From NCBI GenBank assembly GCA_021812925.1, contig JAKAMK010000019.1, positions 1-10,216 on the forward strand: a DNA stretch of 10,216 bases. The letters are read 5' to 3'. A program made the position numbers and the translations under genes. Below the pieces are notes generated by a model that saw nothing but the letters and a program-made list of their open reading frames with translations, was not told the DNA's origin and did no database searches. Source of the DNA: a bacterium. GTDB lineage: Bacteria > Patescibacteria > Paceibacteria > UBA9973 > UBA2103. Of the stretch, positions 5,065 to 9,977 are shown in pieces; position 1 is the first letter of the stretch; each line of letters begins with the position of its first letter.

Positions 5065-5095
5065 AAAAGTAGCCCTCGCGGGCGACTCGTGTATG

Positions 5096-5226
5096 CCCCG
5101 TTAGAAGTCTCCGGGATAAAAAGGTTCATGAAAACCTTTTTATCCGCTTCTGGCGGGACAACTCATTACTTGTAATCAATTTTGAGCCGAAGAGCAACAG
5201 TGGTGTGATTTCGACTTCTAACGGGG
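5096..5226 (+). mobile_element. MITE-like inverted-repeat element, copy 1 (131 bp)
   Basis: Bounded by perfect 14-bp inverted repeats, CCCCGTTAGAAGTC (5096-5109) and GACTTCTAACGGGG (5213-5226). The flanks carry a direct TATG repeat (5092-5095 and 5227-5230), consistent with a target-site duplication. Inside, 4 bp after the left repeat, is a 13-bp-stem hairpin (5114-5145), then a 67-bp core (5146-5212) with no open frame. It is far more AT-rich than its surroundings. A second element with the same ends, order and near-equal length lies at 9840-9972. The hairpin-side ends of both share 16 bp (adding TC), and the core-side ends share 15 bp (adding G), so the two ends are distinct and the family has polarity. 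No transposase is encoded, so it would be non-autonomous. Confidence 0.7.
5114..5145. terminator. Hairpin inside element copy 1
   Basis: GGATAAAAAGGTT (5114-5126) pairs with AACCTTTTTATCC (5133-5145) around a CATGAA loop. The A5 and T5 runs within the arms make it resemble a weak bidirectional terminator between the divergent efp and sigma-factor genes. Confidence 0.4.
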
Positions 5227-5232
5227 TATGCT
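5227..5232 (+). promoter_or_regulatory. Candidate -10 box of the sigma-factor gene, abutting element copy 1
   Basis: TATGCT begins at the base right after the element's terminal GGGG and contains the flanking TATG repeat. It would drive a transcript starting near 5239, which fits a leaderless GTG start at 5240. Before insertion the same box would have been preceded by the sequence now at about 5080-5091. No convincing -35 is found inside the element. Confidence 0.4.
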
Positions 5233-5824
5233 AGCAGACGTGGCACGTATTTCAACTACCGAGGACTATGGCGCTCTCGGAGACGCCGAGGTCCTCGCGC
5301 GCTCGCGGAAAGAGCCCGAGCTCTTCGCCGTACTCGTCCGCCGGTATGAGGCGCCCCTCCTGCGCCGCGCCCGCGTCATCTTGCGTGCGCCGGAAGACGC
5401 GGAAGAGGCCGTGCAGGATGCTTTCACGAAGATGTACCTTTATGCGGACAAGTACCACCCGCAAGAAGGAGCTTCGTTCTCGTCCTGGGCGTACACCATC
5501 CTGAACCGCGTCGCGTACACGAAGTACCGCTCGCGCATGAAGGAGCTCCCGCAGCGCGCCGAACTCCTTCCCGAGCATTTCGAGAGCCTCCCGGACACGC
5601 ACGAGCATTTCCTCGAAGACCTCACCATCCGCGACGAGGTCTTGGCGGCGCTCGCAAAGCTCCCTGAAACCGCTGCGCGACTCCTGCGGTTGCAGTTTAT
5701 CGAGGGGAAGAGCCAAGAGGAGATAGCAGAGAGCGAGGATCTCTCCGTGCCGGCCGTGAAGACGCGCGTCCATCGGGCCAAGAAATTATTCAAACAGGCG
5801 TATGATGAACAACACTATGACTAA
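5228..5824 (+). CDS. ECF-type RNA polymerase sigma factor
   Basis: A 198-aa sigma-70 family protein of the two-domain ECF/RpoE type, which redirects RNA polymerase to a specific promoter set. Region 2 spans about residues 31-103: FAVLVRRYEAPLLRRARVIL, then DAEEAVQDAFTKMY and the promoter-melting segment FSSWAYTILNRVAYTKYR. Region 4 spans about 135-190: LAKLPETAARLLRLQFIEGKSQEEIAE, then the helix-turn-helix VPAVKTRVHRAKKLF. There is no region 1.1 or 3. ATG 5228 lies inside the candidate -10 box and inside the element's flanking repeat, so GTG 5240 (leaderless) is an attractive alternative start; it removes only four residues. The 3' end overlaps the next gene by 23 bp, implying translational coupling. 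The target regulon cannot be read from the window. Confidence 0.85.
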   Translation: MLADVARISTTEDYGALGDAEVLARSRKEPELFAVLVRRYEAPLLRRARVILRAPEDAEEAVQDAFTKMYLYADKYHPQEGASFSSWAYTILNRVAYTKYRSRMKELPQRAELLPEHFESLPDTHEHFLEDLTIRDEVLAALAKLPETAARLLRLQFIEGKSQEEIAESEDLSVPAVKTRVHRAKKLFKQAYDEQHYD

Positions 5825-6143
5825 CCCATCCACCATCGAGCAGAATGTGATGCGCCGCGTGCGCACCATTTCCATACTCCGTCCGCTCGTCTCGGGAGGC
5901 GCGCTCGCCGCGCTCGTGTTCGTCGCCGCGCTGTGGGGCATCGGCAGGGAAGTGTGGGTCGCGAAGGTATTCGAGAACGGCCCGCAGGGGCTCCTTGGGC
6001 ACACGCGCTACCTGCTCTACGCGTTCGACCATACGCGCCTCATCGTACAGGCGCTTACGCTCGTCACCATCCTCGCCTTCGTGTATCTCGCGCGCAGCGT
6101 CGCGCAGGGCATCGCCACCGTTTTGGCGCCGGCGCACGCGTAA
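5802..6143 (+). CDS. Two-helix membrane protein coupled to the sigma factor
   Basis: A 113-aa protein in the +2 frame relative to the end of the sigma gene. It overlaps that gene by 23 bp from ATG 5802, or 8 bp if the internal ATG 5817 is used. Residues 1-26 are a basic cytoplasmic-type N-terminus (VMRRVRTISILR), followed by helix 1 at about 28-47, a loop of about 30 residues (REVWVAKVFENGPQGLLGHTRYLLYAFDHTR), helix 2 at about 79-98, and a short tail. There is no zinc-binding HxxxCxxC anti-sigma motif and no recognisable family. Overlap with an ECF sigma gene makes a membrane regulator (anti-sigma-like) the natural guess, but the short N-terminus is small for that role. The unit ends at the long terminator at 6146. 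Confidence 0.65.
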   Translation: MMNNTMTNPSTIEQNVMRRVRTISILRPLVSGGALAALVFVAALWGIGREVWVAKVFENGPQGLLGHTRYLLYAFDHTRLIVQALTLVTILAFVYLARSVAQGIATVLAPAHA

Positions 6144-6145
6144 CG

Positions 6146-6191
6146 GCGTAACGAAAAAGGCCGGGCGAAAGCCCGGCCTTTTTCGTTACGC
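6146..6191. terminator. Bidirectional terminator between convergent units
   Basis: A perfect 21-bp stem (6146-6166 with 6171-6191) closed by a GAAA tetraloop. The arms carry A5 (6154-6158) and T5 (6179-6183), so a GC-rich core with a T tract is present in both directions. It serves the sigma/membrane-protein pair on the plus strand and recA on the minus strand. Its last base overlaps the recA stop codon. Confidence 0.9.
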
Positions 6192-7240
6192 TACGCCTCC
6201 TTCAGTTTCTCCTGTATCTGCTTCAGGAGCTCTTTCGAGACATCCTTGTGCTCGCGTAGGTACGTGCGCGTGGCGTCGTAGCCGACGGCGAGCTTTTCGC
6301 CACCGGCAAGCTTGTAGGTGGCGCCGCTCTTCTCGATGAGGTCGTACTTTTCGCCGAGTGCGATGAGCTCGCCTTCGCGACTGATGCCTTCGTTGTAAAG
6401 GAGATCGAATTCGGTGGTCTTGAACGGAGCCGCCACCTTGTTCTTCACCACTTTCACGCGCACACGTCCGCCCACGACCTCCTCGCCCTTCTTTATCTGC
6501 GCGATGCGCCGGATGTCGAGGCGCACCGAGGTGTAGAACTTGAGCGCCTTGCCGCCCGGCGTCGTCTCCGGATTGCCGAACATGACGCCGATCTGCATGC
6601 GTATCTGGTTTATGAAGATGACGATGGTCTTCGAGCGCGCGACGATGCTCGTCAGTTTGCGCAGCGCCTGGCTCATGAGGCGAGCCTGCTTGCCAACGTG
6701 CTGCTGGCCCATCTCGCCCTCAATCTCGTCTTTGGGCGTTAAGGCGGCCACGGAGTCCACGACGATGACGTCCACGTTGCCGCTCCGGACCAGGCTCTCG
6801 ACGATGTCGAGCGCCTGCTCGCCGGTGTCCGGCTGGCTGATGAGGAGCTCAGGGAGCTTTACGCCTATCTTGCGCGCGTACTCCGGGTCGAGTGCGTGCT
6901 CGGCGTCTACGAACGCTGCGATACCACCCGCTTTCTGCGCCTCGGCGACCGTGTGGAGCGCGAGGGTCGTCTTGCCGCTCGATTCCGGGCCGAATATCTC
7001 GATGATGCGGCCGCGGGGGAGACCGCCGATGCCGAGCGCTGCATCGAGTCCGATGGAGCCGGTCGAGATGGACGGAATCTTCTCGATCTTACCCGCGCCG
7101 AAGGTCGTGATGGCTTCGTCGCCGAACTTGGTGCGAATCTCCTTCAGGGCCTGTTCGATGGATTTCTGCTTCTCATCCTTGTCGACGGCAGCGGCGGCTA
7201 CTTCCTTCGGAGCTTTAACGACTTTCTTCTTCACAGGCAT
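6191..7240 (-). CDS. recA: Recombinase RecA
   Basis: A 349-aa RecA, the ATP-dependent strand-exchange protein that forms filaments on single-stranded DNA. Key elements: the N-terminal helix region to about residue 48, the MAW segment [23 protein letters not shown] (about 57-79), Walker A GPESSGKT at 84-91, Walker B VIVVD at 158-162, loop L1 around [22 protein letters not shown] (about 174-195), and [28 protein letters not shown] (about 209-236) covering the sensor and loop L2. The C-terminal domain follows, ending in a Lys/Glu-rich helix without the long acidic tail of E. coli RecA. It is third in a ftsK-(small protein)-recA unit, with a 12-bp gap before it and no Shine-Dalgarno. No LexA-type box was recognised. 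Length and motifs are normal. Confidence 0.97.
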
Positions 7241-7252
7241 AGTGGCGTTCAG

Positions 7253-7576
7253 TTACGGTACGTAAATAGTTCTTGTTTTCGTGACAGAGCGTCCGAAGCG
7301 GTCGGTCGCAGTCAGGGTAAGTATAGACCCTCCGGAGGGAAGCGCGAGCGCACTTGAGAAGGCGCCACTCTGGTCCGGCAAGACCGGGGCGCCGTCGAGC
7401 GTGAGCGCCACGGTGCGCCCCGCGCGCCCTGAGATGGTCACGAGCCCGCCCGGGATATCCGCATCTTGGGCAGGTGTCATGATTGCGAGGGAAGGGCCGA
7501 GCAGGAGCGGGCGCGCTTCCATGAAGCCGTACCCGAGGAGCACGACGAGCAAGGCGGCGATGAGGTAGCGGACCAT
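7253..7576 (-). CDS. Membrane-anchored small beta-sandwich protein
   Basis: A 107-aa protein. Residues about 4-18 (YLIAALLVVLLGYGF) form one N-terminal membrane anchor. The rest (about 28-107) looks like a single immunoglobulin-like or cohesin-like beta domain: LAIMTPAQDADIPGGLVTISGRAG, VALTLDGAPV, GAFSSALALPSGGSILTLTATDRFGRSVTKTRTIYV. The pattern 'tP-x-D-x-x-v-x-x-x-x-v-x-i-x-G-x-a' followed by 'v-x-v-x-G' and 't-l-t-v-x-A-t-D-x-x-G-n' is typical of bacterial Ig-like repeats found in surface proteins. It starts 3 bp after the ftsK stop and ends 12 bp before recA, so it is co-transcribed with both. It would sit in the membrane with its domain outside. The role is unknown, and a link to division through FtsK is only a guess from position. 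Confidence 0.7.
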   Translation of the reverse strand: MVRYLIAALLVVLLGYGFMEARPLLLGPSLAIMTPAQDADIPGGLVTISGRAGRTVALTLDGAPVLPDQSGAFSSALALPSGGSILTLTATDRFGRSVTKTRTIYVP

Positions 7577-7579
7577 ATG

Positions 7580-9820
7580 CTAGAAGGTGTCCTCATCCTC
7601 GTCGCCTTCGAGCGTGTCGCTCGACGTGCCGCCTAAGGACAGCACTTCGCGAGGCTTCGAACCGTCTGCCGGGCCGATGACGCCCTTGGCTTCGAGCACG
7701 TCCATGAGTCGTGCTGCACGTGAGTAGCCTATCTTGAGCTTCCGTTGCAGGTAGGAGGTCGAGGCGCGGCCCGCCTCTTCCACCGCACGCTTCGCGTCCT
7801 CGTAGAGGTCATCATCAAGGTCGTCGTCTTCGAATGAGCCGTTTGAAAGACCTATGGTGTCGCCCGCATCTGCGACGACGATGCCGTTGCCTCCCATGTC
7901 TATCGAGGCAAGGTCGCCGGCGTTGTGGCTCTTAATATAGGACGCGACTTTCTTCACTTCGGTCTCGGAGATGAACGCACTCTGGAGACGCACCGGCTTC
8001 TGCATGTCGCTTGCGAGATAGAGCATGTCGCCGGCGCCCAGCAGGGTTTCGGCACCCGAGCCGTCGAGGATGGTGCGCGAGTCTATCTGCGAAGCGACCT
8101 GGAGCGCCATGCGGGTAGGCACGTTCGCCTTGATGAGGCCGGTGATGACATTCACCGACGGGCGCTGGGTACTAAGGACGAGGTGGATGCCCACCGCGCG
8201 GCTCATCTGCGCGAGGCGCACAATGGAGCTCTCGAGCTCGCGCGGGTAGCTCTGCATGATGTCGGCGAGCTCGTCGATGACGATGACGATGTAGGGCATC
8301 GCCTCAGGCATGTCCTCCGCGCCTTTCTTCTTGGCAGGTTCGAAGACGGAGGTGTGGTAGCTCTCGATGTCGCGGACCTGTTCCGCTTCGAGCACGTTGT
8401 AGCGGCGCTCCATTTCCTTGGCCGCCCATTTGAGCGCGAGGATGGTCTTCTTCGGGTCGGTGATGACCGGCGTGAGCAGATGGGGGATACCGTTATAGAG
8501 CGTGAGCTCGACGCGCTTCGGGTCCACCATGATGAAGCGCAGCTGGTTCGGGCCGTTCCTATAGAGGAGCGACGTGATGAGCGCGTGAATGGCCACTGAC
8601 TTGCCCGAGCCGGTCGCGCCAGCGACCAAGGCGTGCGGCATCTTCGCGATGTTCACGTAGTGCGGTGTGCCGGTGATATCGCGCCCGATCGCGGCGAGGA
8701 GCGGCTTCTTGCTCTCTTGCCATGAAGGGGAAGAGAGGACGCCGCCCAAGCCCACCATCGCCTTGGTCGAGTTCGGCACCTCGATGCCGACGAGCGACTT
8801 ACCCGGTATCGGCGCTTCGATGCGCACCGGATGCGCGGCGAGCGCGAGCTCGAGGTTCGAGGCGAGCGAGACGATTTTTGAGAGGCGCACGCCTTCGGCC
8901 GGCTTCACCGCGTAGCGGGTCACCGTCGGGCCGACCGACACCTCGTCCATCTCCACGTTTATGCCGAAGTTCTGGAACGTGCGCTTTATGATGTTCGCGT
9001 TCGCCTTGATGTCGCCCGTACCCGGCTTACCCTTATCGTCACCCAGGATAGAGAGCGGGGGAGCGTCGTACTCGGCATCGAAGTTCCGGATGCCGGCTGC
9101 CGCGGGTGCTACGGTGTCGCTGAAGACGTTCACGACCGGTTCGTGCTCCGGACGAGCCGGTGTCTCGTCTTCGGCTTCCTCATCGTAGGCCTCTTCTCCT
9201 TCGTATGCCTCGGCCTCTTCCTCATATGATTCGTCTTCCGTATCGGCGAATGTCTCACCGTCCTCATCGGACTGGCGGCGCTCCTTGAGGCGCTCGAGCG
9301 TAGAGGCGCCGGTGTGCGCGAGCGCTTCCCCGAGCGCCTCCAGGTCGCTCACGATGACGACGCCTATCGCGATGATGGCGATGAGCAGTACGAGTGCTCC
9401 CCAGAAGCCGAAGAAGCCGTCGAGCGCGGCGCCCACCCAATTGCCCGCCGCGCCGCCCCAGCCGGTGGTGGGGAAGAGCCCGACGAATGCGAGGACGGAG
9501 GCAGCGATGAGCACGTACCCGGCCGCGTTCATGGGAGCCAGGGTCGGCTTGCCGAATCCGGCGTAGAGACCAACCGCGATGAGCGCGAGCGGCAGGAAGA
9601 ATGCCCCTATGCCTACGATAGCGTACGCGAAGGTGAACGCGGCGCGGCCGGCAGGGCCGGCGCCGCCGAAGATGGCGAGGATGAAAAGGACACCGGCGGC
9701 CATAAGGACGATGGCGCTTGCCCATCGTATGAGGGCGTCGTATTCCTTCACTTCTTCATCACGACGCGGCCGACGAGCCGCGTTCTTGCGTGCGAGCGCT
9801 TTACTTTTCGGACGGGCCAT
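7580..9820 (-). CDS. ftsK: DNA translocase FtsK/SpoIIIE
   Basis: A 746-aa FtsK-family translocase that pumps chromosomal DNA through the closing septum. The N-terminus has four transmembrane helices at about 33-51, 61-86, 99-117 and 138-158. A short, strongly acidic linker follows (about 184-220), much shorter than the proline/glutamine-rich linker of E. coli. The alpha and beta motor domains run from about 265 to 640, with Walker A GATGSGKS at 401-408, Walker B IVIVIDELAD at 511-520, and the LVLSTQRPSVNVITGLIKANVPTR segment at 547-570. The C-terminal gamma winged helix (about 672-728; DLYEDAKRAV to KGVIGPADG) reads the polarity sequences (KOPS/SRS-like) on DNA. The start at 9820 (MARPKSKALARKN) lies 10 nt after an extended -10, so it appears leaderless. 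Confidence 0.95.
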   Translation of the reverse strand: MARPKSKALARKNAARRPRRDEEVKEYDALIRWASAIVLMAAGVLFILAIFGGAGPAGRAAFTFAYAIVGIGAFFLPLALIAVGLYAGFGKPTLAPMNAAGYVLIAASVLAFVGLFPTTGWGGAAGNWVGAALDGFFGFWGALVLLIAIIAIGVVIVSDLEALGEALAHTGASTLERLKERRQSDEDGETFADTEDESYEEEAEAYEGEEAYDEEAEDETPARPEHEPVVNVFSDTVAPAAAGIRNFDAEYDAPPLSILGDDKGKPGTGDIKANANIIKRTFQNFGINVEMDEVSVGPTVTRYAVKPAEGVRLSKIVSLASNLELALAAHPVRIEAPIPGKSLVGIEVPNSTKAMVGLGGVLSSPSWQESKKPLLAAIGRDITGTPHYVNIAKMPHALVAGATGSGKSVAIHALITSLLYRNGPNQLRFIMVDPKRVELTLYNGIPHLLTPVITDPKKTILALKWAAKEMERRYNVLEAEQVRDIESYHTSVFEPAKKKGAEDMPEAMPYIVIVIDELADIMQSYPRELESSIVRLAQMSRAVGIHLVLSTQRPSVNVITGLIKANVPTRMALQVASQIDSRTILDGSGAETLLGAGDMLYLASDMQKPVRLQSAFISETEVKKVASYIKSHNAGDLASIDMGGNGIVVADAGDTIGLSNGSFEDDDLDDDLYEDAKRAVEEAGRASTSYLQRKLKIGYSRAARLMDVLEAKGVIGPADGSKPREVLSLGGTSSDTLEGDEDEDTF

Positions 9821-9830
9821 AACGTAACGT

Positions 9831-9839
9831 ATTGTAGCA
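9831..9839 (-). promoter_or_regulatory. Extended -10 promoter of ftsK, abutting element copy 2
   Basis: On the minus strand TGCTACAAT (9839 to 9831) is an extended -10. The ATG of ftsK is 10 nt further on, leaving a leader of only about 3-4 nt. Its upstream edge coincides exactly with the end of the inverted-repeat element (9840), and its TGCTA is the flanking direct repeat. No -35 is recognisable. Confidence 0.6.
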
Positions 9840-9972
9840 CCCCGTTAGAAGTCGGCCTTGGCCGGCTCGTCCGCAAAAGACAGTCAGATACCGTGAGTTT
9901 CGGCCACCGATTACCAAGCCCAAGAAAATCCGGGCATGCCCGGATTTTCTTGGGCCGAGACTTCTAACGGGG
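9840..9972 (-). mobile_element. MITE-like inverted-repeat element, copy 2 (133 bp)
   Basis: Bounded by the same 14-bp inverted repeats as the element at 5096-5226: CCCCGTTAGAAGTC (9840-9853) and GACTTCTAACGGGG (9959-9972). Direct TAGCA repeats flank it (9835-9839 and 9973-9977). On the minus strand the order matches copy 1: the end followed by TC, a palindrome (here 38 bp, 9955-9918), a 64-bp core, and the end followed by G. The core does not align with that of copy 1, and the palindrome has a different sequence apart from a central CATG. Its core-side end meets the ftsK -10 box, as copy 1 meets the sigma-factor -10. No open frame is present. It also separates ftsK from the possible RNA gene at 9978. 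Confidence 0.7.
9918..9955. terminator. 38-bp perfect palindrome inside element copy 2
   Basis: The sequence from 9918 to 9955 equals its own reverse complement. The centre (CCGGGCATGCCCGG) is flanked by AAGAAAAT on the left and ATTTTCTT on the right, so either transcript would form a GC stem followed by a T-rich stretch, as in a bidirectional intrinsic terminator. It lies upstream of the ftsK promoter and could block read-through from either side. Confidence 0.55.
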
Positions 9973-9977
9973 TAGCA

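Follow-up and report, generated by a model that had tools for sequence, protein, structure and literature searches.

The window analysed here is a 10,216-nucleotide stretch of patescibacterial DNA (contig JAKAMK010000019.1 of assembly GCA_021812925.1). It contains two elements of 131 and 133 bp which share perfect 14-bp inverted ends and belong to a family of short elements found in many groups of the Patescibacteria. Taken as a whole, the elements are probably best explained as a non-autonomous family resembling miniature inverted-repeat transposable elements (MITEs), which is moved in trans and regenerates start codons. We place the family in the MITE-like class because of its ends, its target duplication, the empty sites, its copy number and its lack of coding capacity. 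The regeneration of start codons is new, as are the host range and the combination of modular interiors with constant ends and a constant layout. The siting at start codons is the most unusual feature of the family and was not part of the initial annotation of this window.

Target duplications and empty sites

For the analysis of the flanks 108 pairs of exact ends were found; 107 distinct elements were analysed, because the 217-bp pair in locus L098 is above the length limit. A direct repeat of at least 4 bp lies flush with the ends in 81 of the 107 elements (4 bp in 76, 5 bp in 5). Permutation of the flanks gave a mean of 16.1 and a maximum of 29 matching 4-bp flanks in 5000 permutations, compared with the 76 observed. 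If all elements are oriented with the hairpin to the left, the right flank begins with T or C in every one of the 107 and has A or G as its fourth base in 101, and hence the target pattern is YNNR. In the same orientation the duplication is strand-polar (34 TGAA versus 2 TTCA). Within one subfamily both flanking 4-mers vary jointly (TGAA/TGAA, TATG/TATG, TTGA/TTGA, TGGA/TGGA), which is the behaviour of a target duplication. Furthermore, one element is inserted into another near its hairpin-side end (L196, 2256–2521).

The short direct repeats which had been described for the window, TATG at element 1 and TAGCA at element 2, do abut the ends without any gap, and empty sites with one copy of the repeat are found for both. 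At the locus of element 1 the relatives G439, G216 and G358, whose sigma factors are 79%, 76% and 57% identical to that of the window, keep the arrangement of efp and the sigma factor gene with a single TATG and no insert. The window reads ...GTG-TATG-[131 bp]-TATG-CTAGCAGACG... where G439 reads ...CTG-TATG-CTAGCAGATG... At the locus of element 2 the window has TGCTA-[133 bp]-TGCTA-CAATACG and G216 has ...AAG-TGCTA-CAATATAC...; G439 is likewise empty upstream of ftsK with one TGCTA (...TGA-TGCTA-TACTATG...). G358 has no insert at this site, but different bases.

Family size and host distribution

Species genomes of bacteria and archaea, 84,980 in all, were scanned for two exact 14-bp ends in inverted orientation 90–120 bp apart. 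The further copies for which the initial annotation had proposed to search exist: 101 stretches carry such a pair. By a hand count of the records they come from 40 assemblies; 34 of these bear the title of a Patescibacteria group and contribute 84 of the 101 stretches. The groups are Nealson-, Uhr-, Kaiser-, Wolfe-, Niyogi-, Wildermuth-, Buchanan- and Falkowbacteria, Parcubacteria, and Kazan, which we take to be part of the phylum. The other records are four titled 'bacterium' (13 stretches), one Omnitrophota (3) and one Opitutia (1), possibly owing to mis-binning. A collection of viral contigs gave no end pair, and a viral origin was rejected for this reason.

The 0.6-Mb genome G001 contains 49 exact copies of the 14-mer and none of a reversed-motif control; 43 elements, some with variant ends, were found in the 523 kb read. 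A second genome, G002, has 41 exact ends. Chance as the origin of the repeats is ruled out by shuffles, by the reversed-motif control and by the permutation of the flanks. The family is patchy but widespread in the Patescibacteria, being scattered over many groups and not private to one lineage. The suggestion of an undescribed element of this lineage is supported in its first part and not in its second: among the matches listed in a literature search, with subscription papers and preprints outside its coverage, no title or abstract opening describes the family.

Architecture, subfamilies and cores

The outer bases, CCCCGTTAG(A), sit within an inverted repeat of mostly 13–15 bp. When only CCCCGTTAG was required, 215 pairs were collected (a redundant set in which overlapping loci are counted twice); the matched end comprises 13–15 bp in 194 of them, and 204 are 85–150 bp long. 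The elements encode no transposase. The layout is polar: an end is followed after 2–6 bp by a hairpin, a core of about 70 bp and the other end. The spacing between end and hairpin is 2–6 bp in 99 of the 107 elements in hairpin-left orientation, the core measures 63–74 bp (5th to 95th percentile of the 107), and the median hairpin score is 12 versus 5 in 60 shuffled interiors.

For the alignment of subfamily A1, 42 elements were gathered by their core end, eight whose interiors looked different were removed by hand, and the remaining 34, from 17 assemblies, were aligned with 76% mean column identity. A four-helix structure can be drawn for A1, in which 13 pairs are changed on both sides (6.2 in shuffled alignments). 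There are 53 double-change cells compared with 16.4 after shuffling, none of 500 shuffles being as high, and all measures fall when the helix partners are slid. These values are to be read with the caution that kinship alone can beat shuffles without any structure, that the set is hand-chosen and that helix 1, formed by the ends, is invariant by selection. In 40 other elements the inner repeat departs from AAGTC on one or both sides; here repeat position 12 still agrees between the ends in 34 of the 40 (17.7 when permuted) and position 13 in all 40 (23.8 when permuted).

Between subfamilies the median pairwise identity of 150 cores is 0.61 versus 0.58 for shuffled cores, and for that reason we regard the cores as variable between subfamilies. 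The unrelated interiors reported for the two elements of the window are therefore found only between subfamilies, including the two in question, whereas members of one subfamily, such as A1, align throughout. With this amendment the original proposal of a non-autonomous, polar and modular MITE-like element agrees with the duplications, the empty sites, the many copies and genomes, and the conserved ends and layout around differing interiors.

Variable interiors between constant ends could also suggest that the ends are integron-like recombination sites related to attC and that the cores are cassettes. GTTAGAA/TTCTAAC in the ends resembles the integron core consensus, and a few pairs enclose tRNA genes. 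The order of the motifs is, however, opposite to that of attC, 4 bp of target are duplicated and the sites are scattered, and this relationship is very improbable, no search aimed at an integron integrase having been made.

Some further observations concern the interiors. Many A1 members have an internal AACGGGG right before TATAAT in alignment columns 59–68. This third occurrence of the terminal heptamer could offer the left end an alternative pairing partner. Mini-hairpins of 28–34 bp with the same terminal bases occur at L006:7333–7366, with TTGA on both sides, and at L310:1522–1549; they are possibly relics of internal deletions. Intact tRNA genes lie inside CCCCGTTAGA...TCTAACGGGG ends at L312:1481–1594, L313:1511–1624 and L299:1501–1618 (tRNA-Met in G022 and G018, tRNA-Val in G157), where a clear target duplication was not seen. 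Locus L305 has two elements with TCCA duplications, at 1501–1600 and 1671–1771, and the first includes the last two bases of a tRNA-Ala gene.

Siting at start codons

In hairpin-to-core order, 56 of the 107 elements follow the end of one gene and precede the start of another, and 26 do so in the reverse order. Divergent genes flank 13 elements and convergent genes 3, and 9 have a gene on one side only. A start codon is occupied by 57 of the 107. In 38 of these the terminal G of the element and a TG in frame with the downstream gene form GTG. Five have TATG with an in-frame ATG on the core side, and in 14 with CATA on the hairpin side the ATG of the neighbouring gene lies within the duplication. 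Where a TG-flanked element is followed by a downstream frame of at least 300 nt that is open to the junction, this frame is the GTG-making one in 38 of 39 cases.

In 21 of the 107 the end of the upstream gene is 4 nt away from the element, and its stop codon is part of the TGAA, TAAA or TGAG in the flank. For 14 of the 21 the downstream gene is in the GTG frame as well, so that an ATGA overlap has been split and both genes are intact. The junction GGGG-TG or GGGA-TG spares the upstream stop and leaves an in-frame start for the next gene. Among the genes which carry an element are some that resemble, as named by eye, those for ribosomal proteins, SSB, FtsA and YidC.

Under a lenient rule, start codons account for 28 of the 42 sites in G001. 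In a strict test restricted to true TGAA duplications, 18 lie at a start codon, 3 at other non-coding sites and 1 in coding sequence; the background of TGAA sites is 193 at starts versus 614 at other non-coding sites (P = 4e-9). An end variant, TCCC...GGGA, that makes ATG occurs in G057, a genome of 700 kb on a single contig. Here a frame of 60 codons or more opens at 10 of 13 TG-flanked ends (9 with ATG, 1 with GTG), compared with 2 of 24 other ends.

As to signals within the elements, TATAAT-like hexamers (at least 5 of 6 bases) recur most at two columns of the A1 alignment, in 19 and 27 of the 34 members, which is compatible with a carried promoter. In 6 of 66 TG-junction rows the junction is preceded, at a distance of exactly 16 codons, by an in-frame ATG, and in those six a short N-terminal peptide ending in TSNG might precede the host protein. 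An in-element start codon for the common subfamily was considered and rejected; traced back from the junction, the frame closes within 7 codons in 25 of the 66 rows.

We considered whether the elements could be vertically inherited cis-regulatory leaders, that is structured 5' untranslated regions and not mobile DNA. The covarying stems, the nearly fixed orientation to the gene and the position at the start codon would suit leaders, as would the scarcity of convergent placement (just 3 of the 107, no convergent-space background having been computed). Yet the elements are carried by unrelated genes, relatives have empty sites in which the duplicated bases are present once, there is a case of nesting of two elements, and the 4-bp duplications match far more often than on permutation. 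We consider an origin as inherited leaders very improbable.

The siting itself could come about through targeting, tolerance or benefit, and each remains a candidate. According to the first, the enzyme is drawn to initiation signals, such as an A-T rich (A/G)TGAA or TATG motif, an open promoter or the initiation complex, and selection after insertion is not the cause. Non-coding TGAA duplications of G001 lie at starts in 18 of 21 cases, although only 24% of the available non-coding and start TGAA sites do so. Despite identical ends, the members of a subfamily nearly all have one orientation to the gene, and both elements of the window duplicated 4–5 bp of a motif near a gene start that is conserved in relatives. 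A tolerance filter together with a benefit from the leader could, however, yield the same pattern, and the end facing the gene differs by subfamily (CATA class versus TGAA class). Targeting is in our opinion possible, if on balance unlikely.

The two elements of the window

The coordinates of both elements and of the adjacent genes are compiled in Table 1. The perfect 14-bp ends, the lengths and the hairpins are as originally annotated; the hairpin-side ends of the two elements share 16 bp and the core-side ends 15–16 bp. All four ends are exact, and the window contains no further match with up to 3 mismatches (chance mean 0.73). Four such loose matches were reached in 3 of 200 shuffles, whereas the four of the window are exact and paired. 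The central CATG, put forward as a shared feature of the hairpins, is found in 2 of the 107 elements, the two of the window, and is for this reason not a feature of the family. In RNA folding every strand of both elements is far more stable than shuffled sequences (z from −5.9 to −9.0). A search of the window against Rfam at gathering thresholds matched no known RNA family.

At both loci the core end faces the gene and the gene-side copy of the duplication is intact. The TATG of element 1 holds the in-frame ATG of the sigma factor gene and is also part of a TATGCT/TATGAT motif common to the relatives; judging from the letters, it could be either a start codon or a −10 box. The TGCTA of element 2 begins TGCTACAAT 5' of ftsK, presumably an extended −10-like motif, which is found exactly in G216 and as TGCTATACT in G439.

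Table 1. Positions of the elements, their parts, flanking duplications and downstream genes in the window (TSD, target site duplication; ORF, open reading frame)
Feature	Position	Strand	Evidence
TSD TATG, left, element 1	5092..5095	+	sequence; single TATG in relatives G439, G216, G358
Element 1, 131 bp, hairpin end left, core end beside ECF sigma-factor gene	5096..5226	+	sequence; empty site in relatives
Element 1 terminal inverted repeat, hairpin side, CCCCGTTAGAAGTC	5096..5109	+	motif search
Element 1 subterminal palindromic hairpin, 13-bp arms	5114..5145	+	sequence
Element 1 variable core	5146..5212	+	sequence
Element 1 terminal inverted repeat, core side	5213..5226	-	motif search
TSD TATG, right, element 1; holds in-frame ATG (5228) of sigma ORF	5227..5230	+	sequence, relatives
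ECF sigma-70 factor gene, downstream of element 1	5228..5824	+	TIGR02937, E 2.8e-23
FtsK-type DNA translocase gene, downstream of element 2	7580..9820	-	PRK10263 FtsK profile, E 6.7e-117, under the model's curated cut-off
TSD TAGCA, element 2 (TGCTA on ftsK strand)	9835..9839	+	sequence; single TGCTA in relatives G216, G439
Element 2, 133 bp; on minus strand hairpin end first, core end beside ftsK	9840..9972	-	sequence; empty site in G216, G439
Element 2 terminal inverted repeat, core side	9840..9853	+	motif search
Element 2 variable core	9854..9917	-	sequence
Element 2 subterminal palindrome, two perfect 19-bp arms	9918..9955	+	sequence
Element 2 terminal inverted repeat, hairpin side	9959..9972	-	motif search
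TAGCA, second copy, element 2	9973..9977	+	sequence

Two other features of the window were noticed. A 74-bp stretch ending in a stop codon (244–317) has an 84% identical repeat 767 bp downstream (1011–1084), apparently a copied 3' end of a gene. A perfect palindrome with 21-bp arms between the sigma operon and recA (6146–6191) is probably a bidirectional terminator.

Proposed mechanism and search for the mobilising enzyme

For the MITE-like family we propose that a trans-acting enzyme, probably a transposase of the DDE type, brings the inverted ends together and excises the element, whose ends would then be joined to a staggered cut of 4 bp. In gene-dense genomes selection would mainly keep those insertions that regenerate an initiation signal. 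The element may in addition provide the gene with promoter and leader in one large subfamily or more, and a role of this kind would account for an orientation that hardly varies within a subfamily.

Several observations weigh against this explanation. It is the duplication alone that suggests the DDE step, and 26 of the 107 elements are without a duplication of at least 4 bp (none in 21, 2–3 bp in 5). The spread is patchy: exact pairs occur in 3 and relaxed CCCCGTTAGA-end pairs in 9 of 192 sampled genomes of the phylum, and each of these counts includes the centre genome G001. A search of 329 sequences of 2.52 Mb, a total in which overlapping loci are counted more than once and which includes the G057 contig, revealed no copy that has these ends and bears a transposase. 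Nor does any of six transposase families track the elements, each being absent from most of the bearing genomes, G001 among them. The conserved interior structure of A1 exceeds what a MITE needs. A simple sigma-70 scan of the two elements of the window found no promoter reading towards the genes, and element 2 is not at a start codon. Finally, the gene calls follow a simple longest-frame rule and were made with no gene finder.

The transposase gene between the same ends for which the initial annotation had proposed to look was thus not encountered. Among pairs of ends 400–6000 bp apart, 22 share a 4-bp flank; in 21 of these both ends belong to short elements, and in the remaining one the unpaired end has, by eye, a degenerate short partner, with host genes in between. 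These long pairs were consequently rejected as autonomous copies, as they represent neighbouring short elements around host genes. The six families were rejected as mobiliser as well. IS1380 (PF13701), suspected from the end and the duplication length, is present in 2 of 32 bearing genomes, PF01609 in 4 of 27, rve (PF00665) in 10 of 27 and not in G001, IS1595 (PF12762) in 4 of 27, and PF13546 and PF13612 in 1 of 31 each. It is possible that the mobiliser has been lost from these assemblies or belongs to a family outside those searched.

Genes for Y1 transposases (PF01797) are present in 20 of 27 bearing genomes, and by eye they are the sole multi-copy transposases among the compared open reading frames of G001, which has two serine recombinases besides. 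The elements could accordingly be thought of as REP/REPIN-like, mobilised as single-strand hairpins by a stand-alone Y1 enzyme of the RAYT or IS200-like type, with the flanking 4-mers as cleavage tetranucleotide and no duplication. The strongly palindromic elements and the strand polarity of the duplication would suit such a mechanism. Against this, the flanking 4-mers vary jointly within one subfamily, as a duplication does, of 30 Y1 loci examined none lies between inverted copies of these ends, 11 of the 13 loci whose flanks were inspected show by eye a different palindrome, and G002 has no Y1 match in spite of its 41 exact ends. Mobilisation by Y1 is in our view improbable.

The stand-alone Y1/RAYT genes are themselves bordered by perfect palindromes which by eye differ between most genes, e.g. 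CTATCGGGGTTCGACCCCGATAG, and represent a separate and diverse REP-like system (L226, L230, L231, L233, L234, L235, L238, L241, L243, L245 and L246).

A more far-reaching form of the MITE-like explanation would make the family a mobile initiation module on the scale of the phylum. Its enzyme would be guided to start signals, insert the element in the start codon and rebuild this codon with the last base of the element (G giving GTG and, in a second lineage, A giving ATG). The gene would thereby be given a promoter, a structured leader and sometimes an N-terminal peptide, and the ends could enclose unrelated cargo including tRNA genes. In this full form we hold the proposal to be rather unlikely and put it forward tentatively.

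The genomes of Patescibacteria are tiny and gene-packed, and to our knowledge few mobile elements have been described in them. A repeat family which can spread there because its insertion regenerates the signal that it interrupts, be it an ATGA stop/start overlap, a start codon or a promoter-like motif, illustrates how selfish DNA can live in a nearly full genome. It also offers a concrete case for asking whether small mobile DNAs rewire the initiation of essential genes, and the absent mobilising enzyme is a defined target for discovery.

Comparison with known systems

The Correia or NEMIS elements of Neisseria are described as non-autonomous elements of about 107 and 155 bp with inverted repeats and a target duplication, which often lie directly upstream of genes and carry promoters (PMC10969869, PMC2229807). 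In the passages of the second source the inverted repeat is given as 24 bp with TA at the termini (PMC2229807). The small size, the lack of autonomy, the inverted repeats, the duplication and the position upstream of genes are shared, as far as these passages describe them. In contrast, the repeat of the patescibacterial family is mostly 13–15 bp, starts with CCCC and is accompanied by a 4-bp YNNR duplication; TA termini and a repeat of about 24 bp are not found. It also differs from the elements so described in its many unrelated cores, its phylum-wide hosts and its rebuilt start codons.

The Rickettsia palindromic elements (RPE) measure 105–146 bp, have long stem–loops and terminal repeats and lie in frame with genes; their duplication is marked '?' in the source (PMC2229807). 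According to these passages RPE are inside protein genes, whereas the patescibacterial elements are at gene starts, sometimes with a possible N-terminal leader ending in TSNG.

With REP/REPIN and RAYT systems the family has in common that it consists of hairpin-rich intergenic repeats, and RAYT-like Y1 genes occur in most of the bearing genomes, as stated above. It differs from them by its target duplication, and the inspected flanks of the Y1 genes mostly have other palindromes; flanking of a RAYT gene by the same repeat was not found.

RUP of Streptococcus pneumoniae is thought, on indirect evidence, to be mobilised in trans by the transposase of IS630-Spn1, and RUP and ERIC have TA termini and repeats given as 9 and 7 bp (PMC2229807). 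As small MITE-like elements they resemble the patescibacterial family in the features covered there. Regeneration of start codons, which sets this family apart, is not mentioned for either in those passages of PMC2229807.

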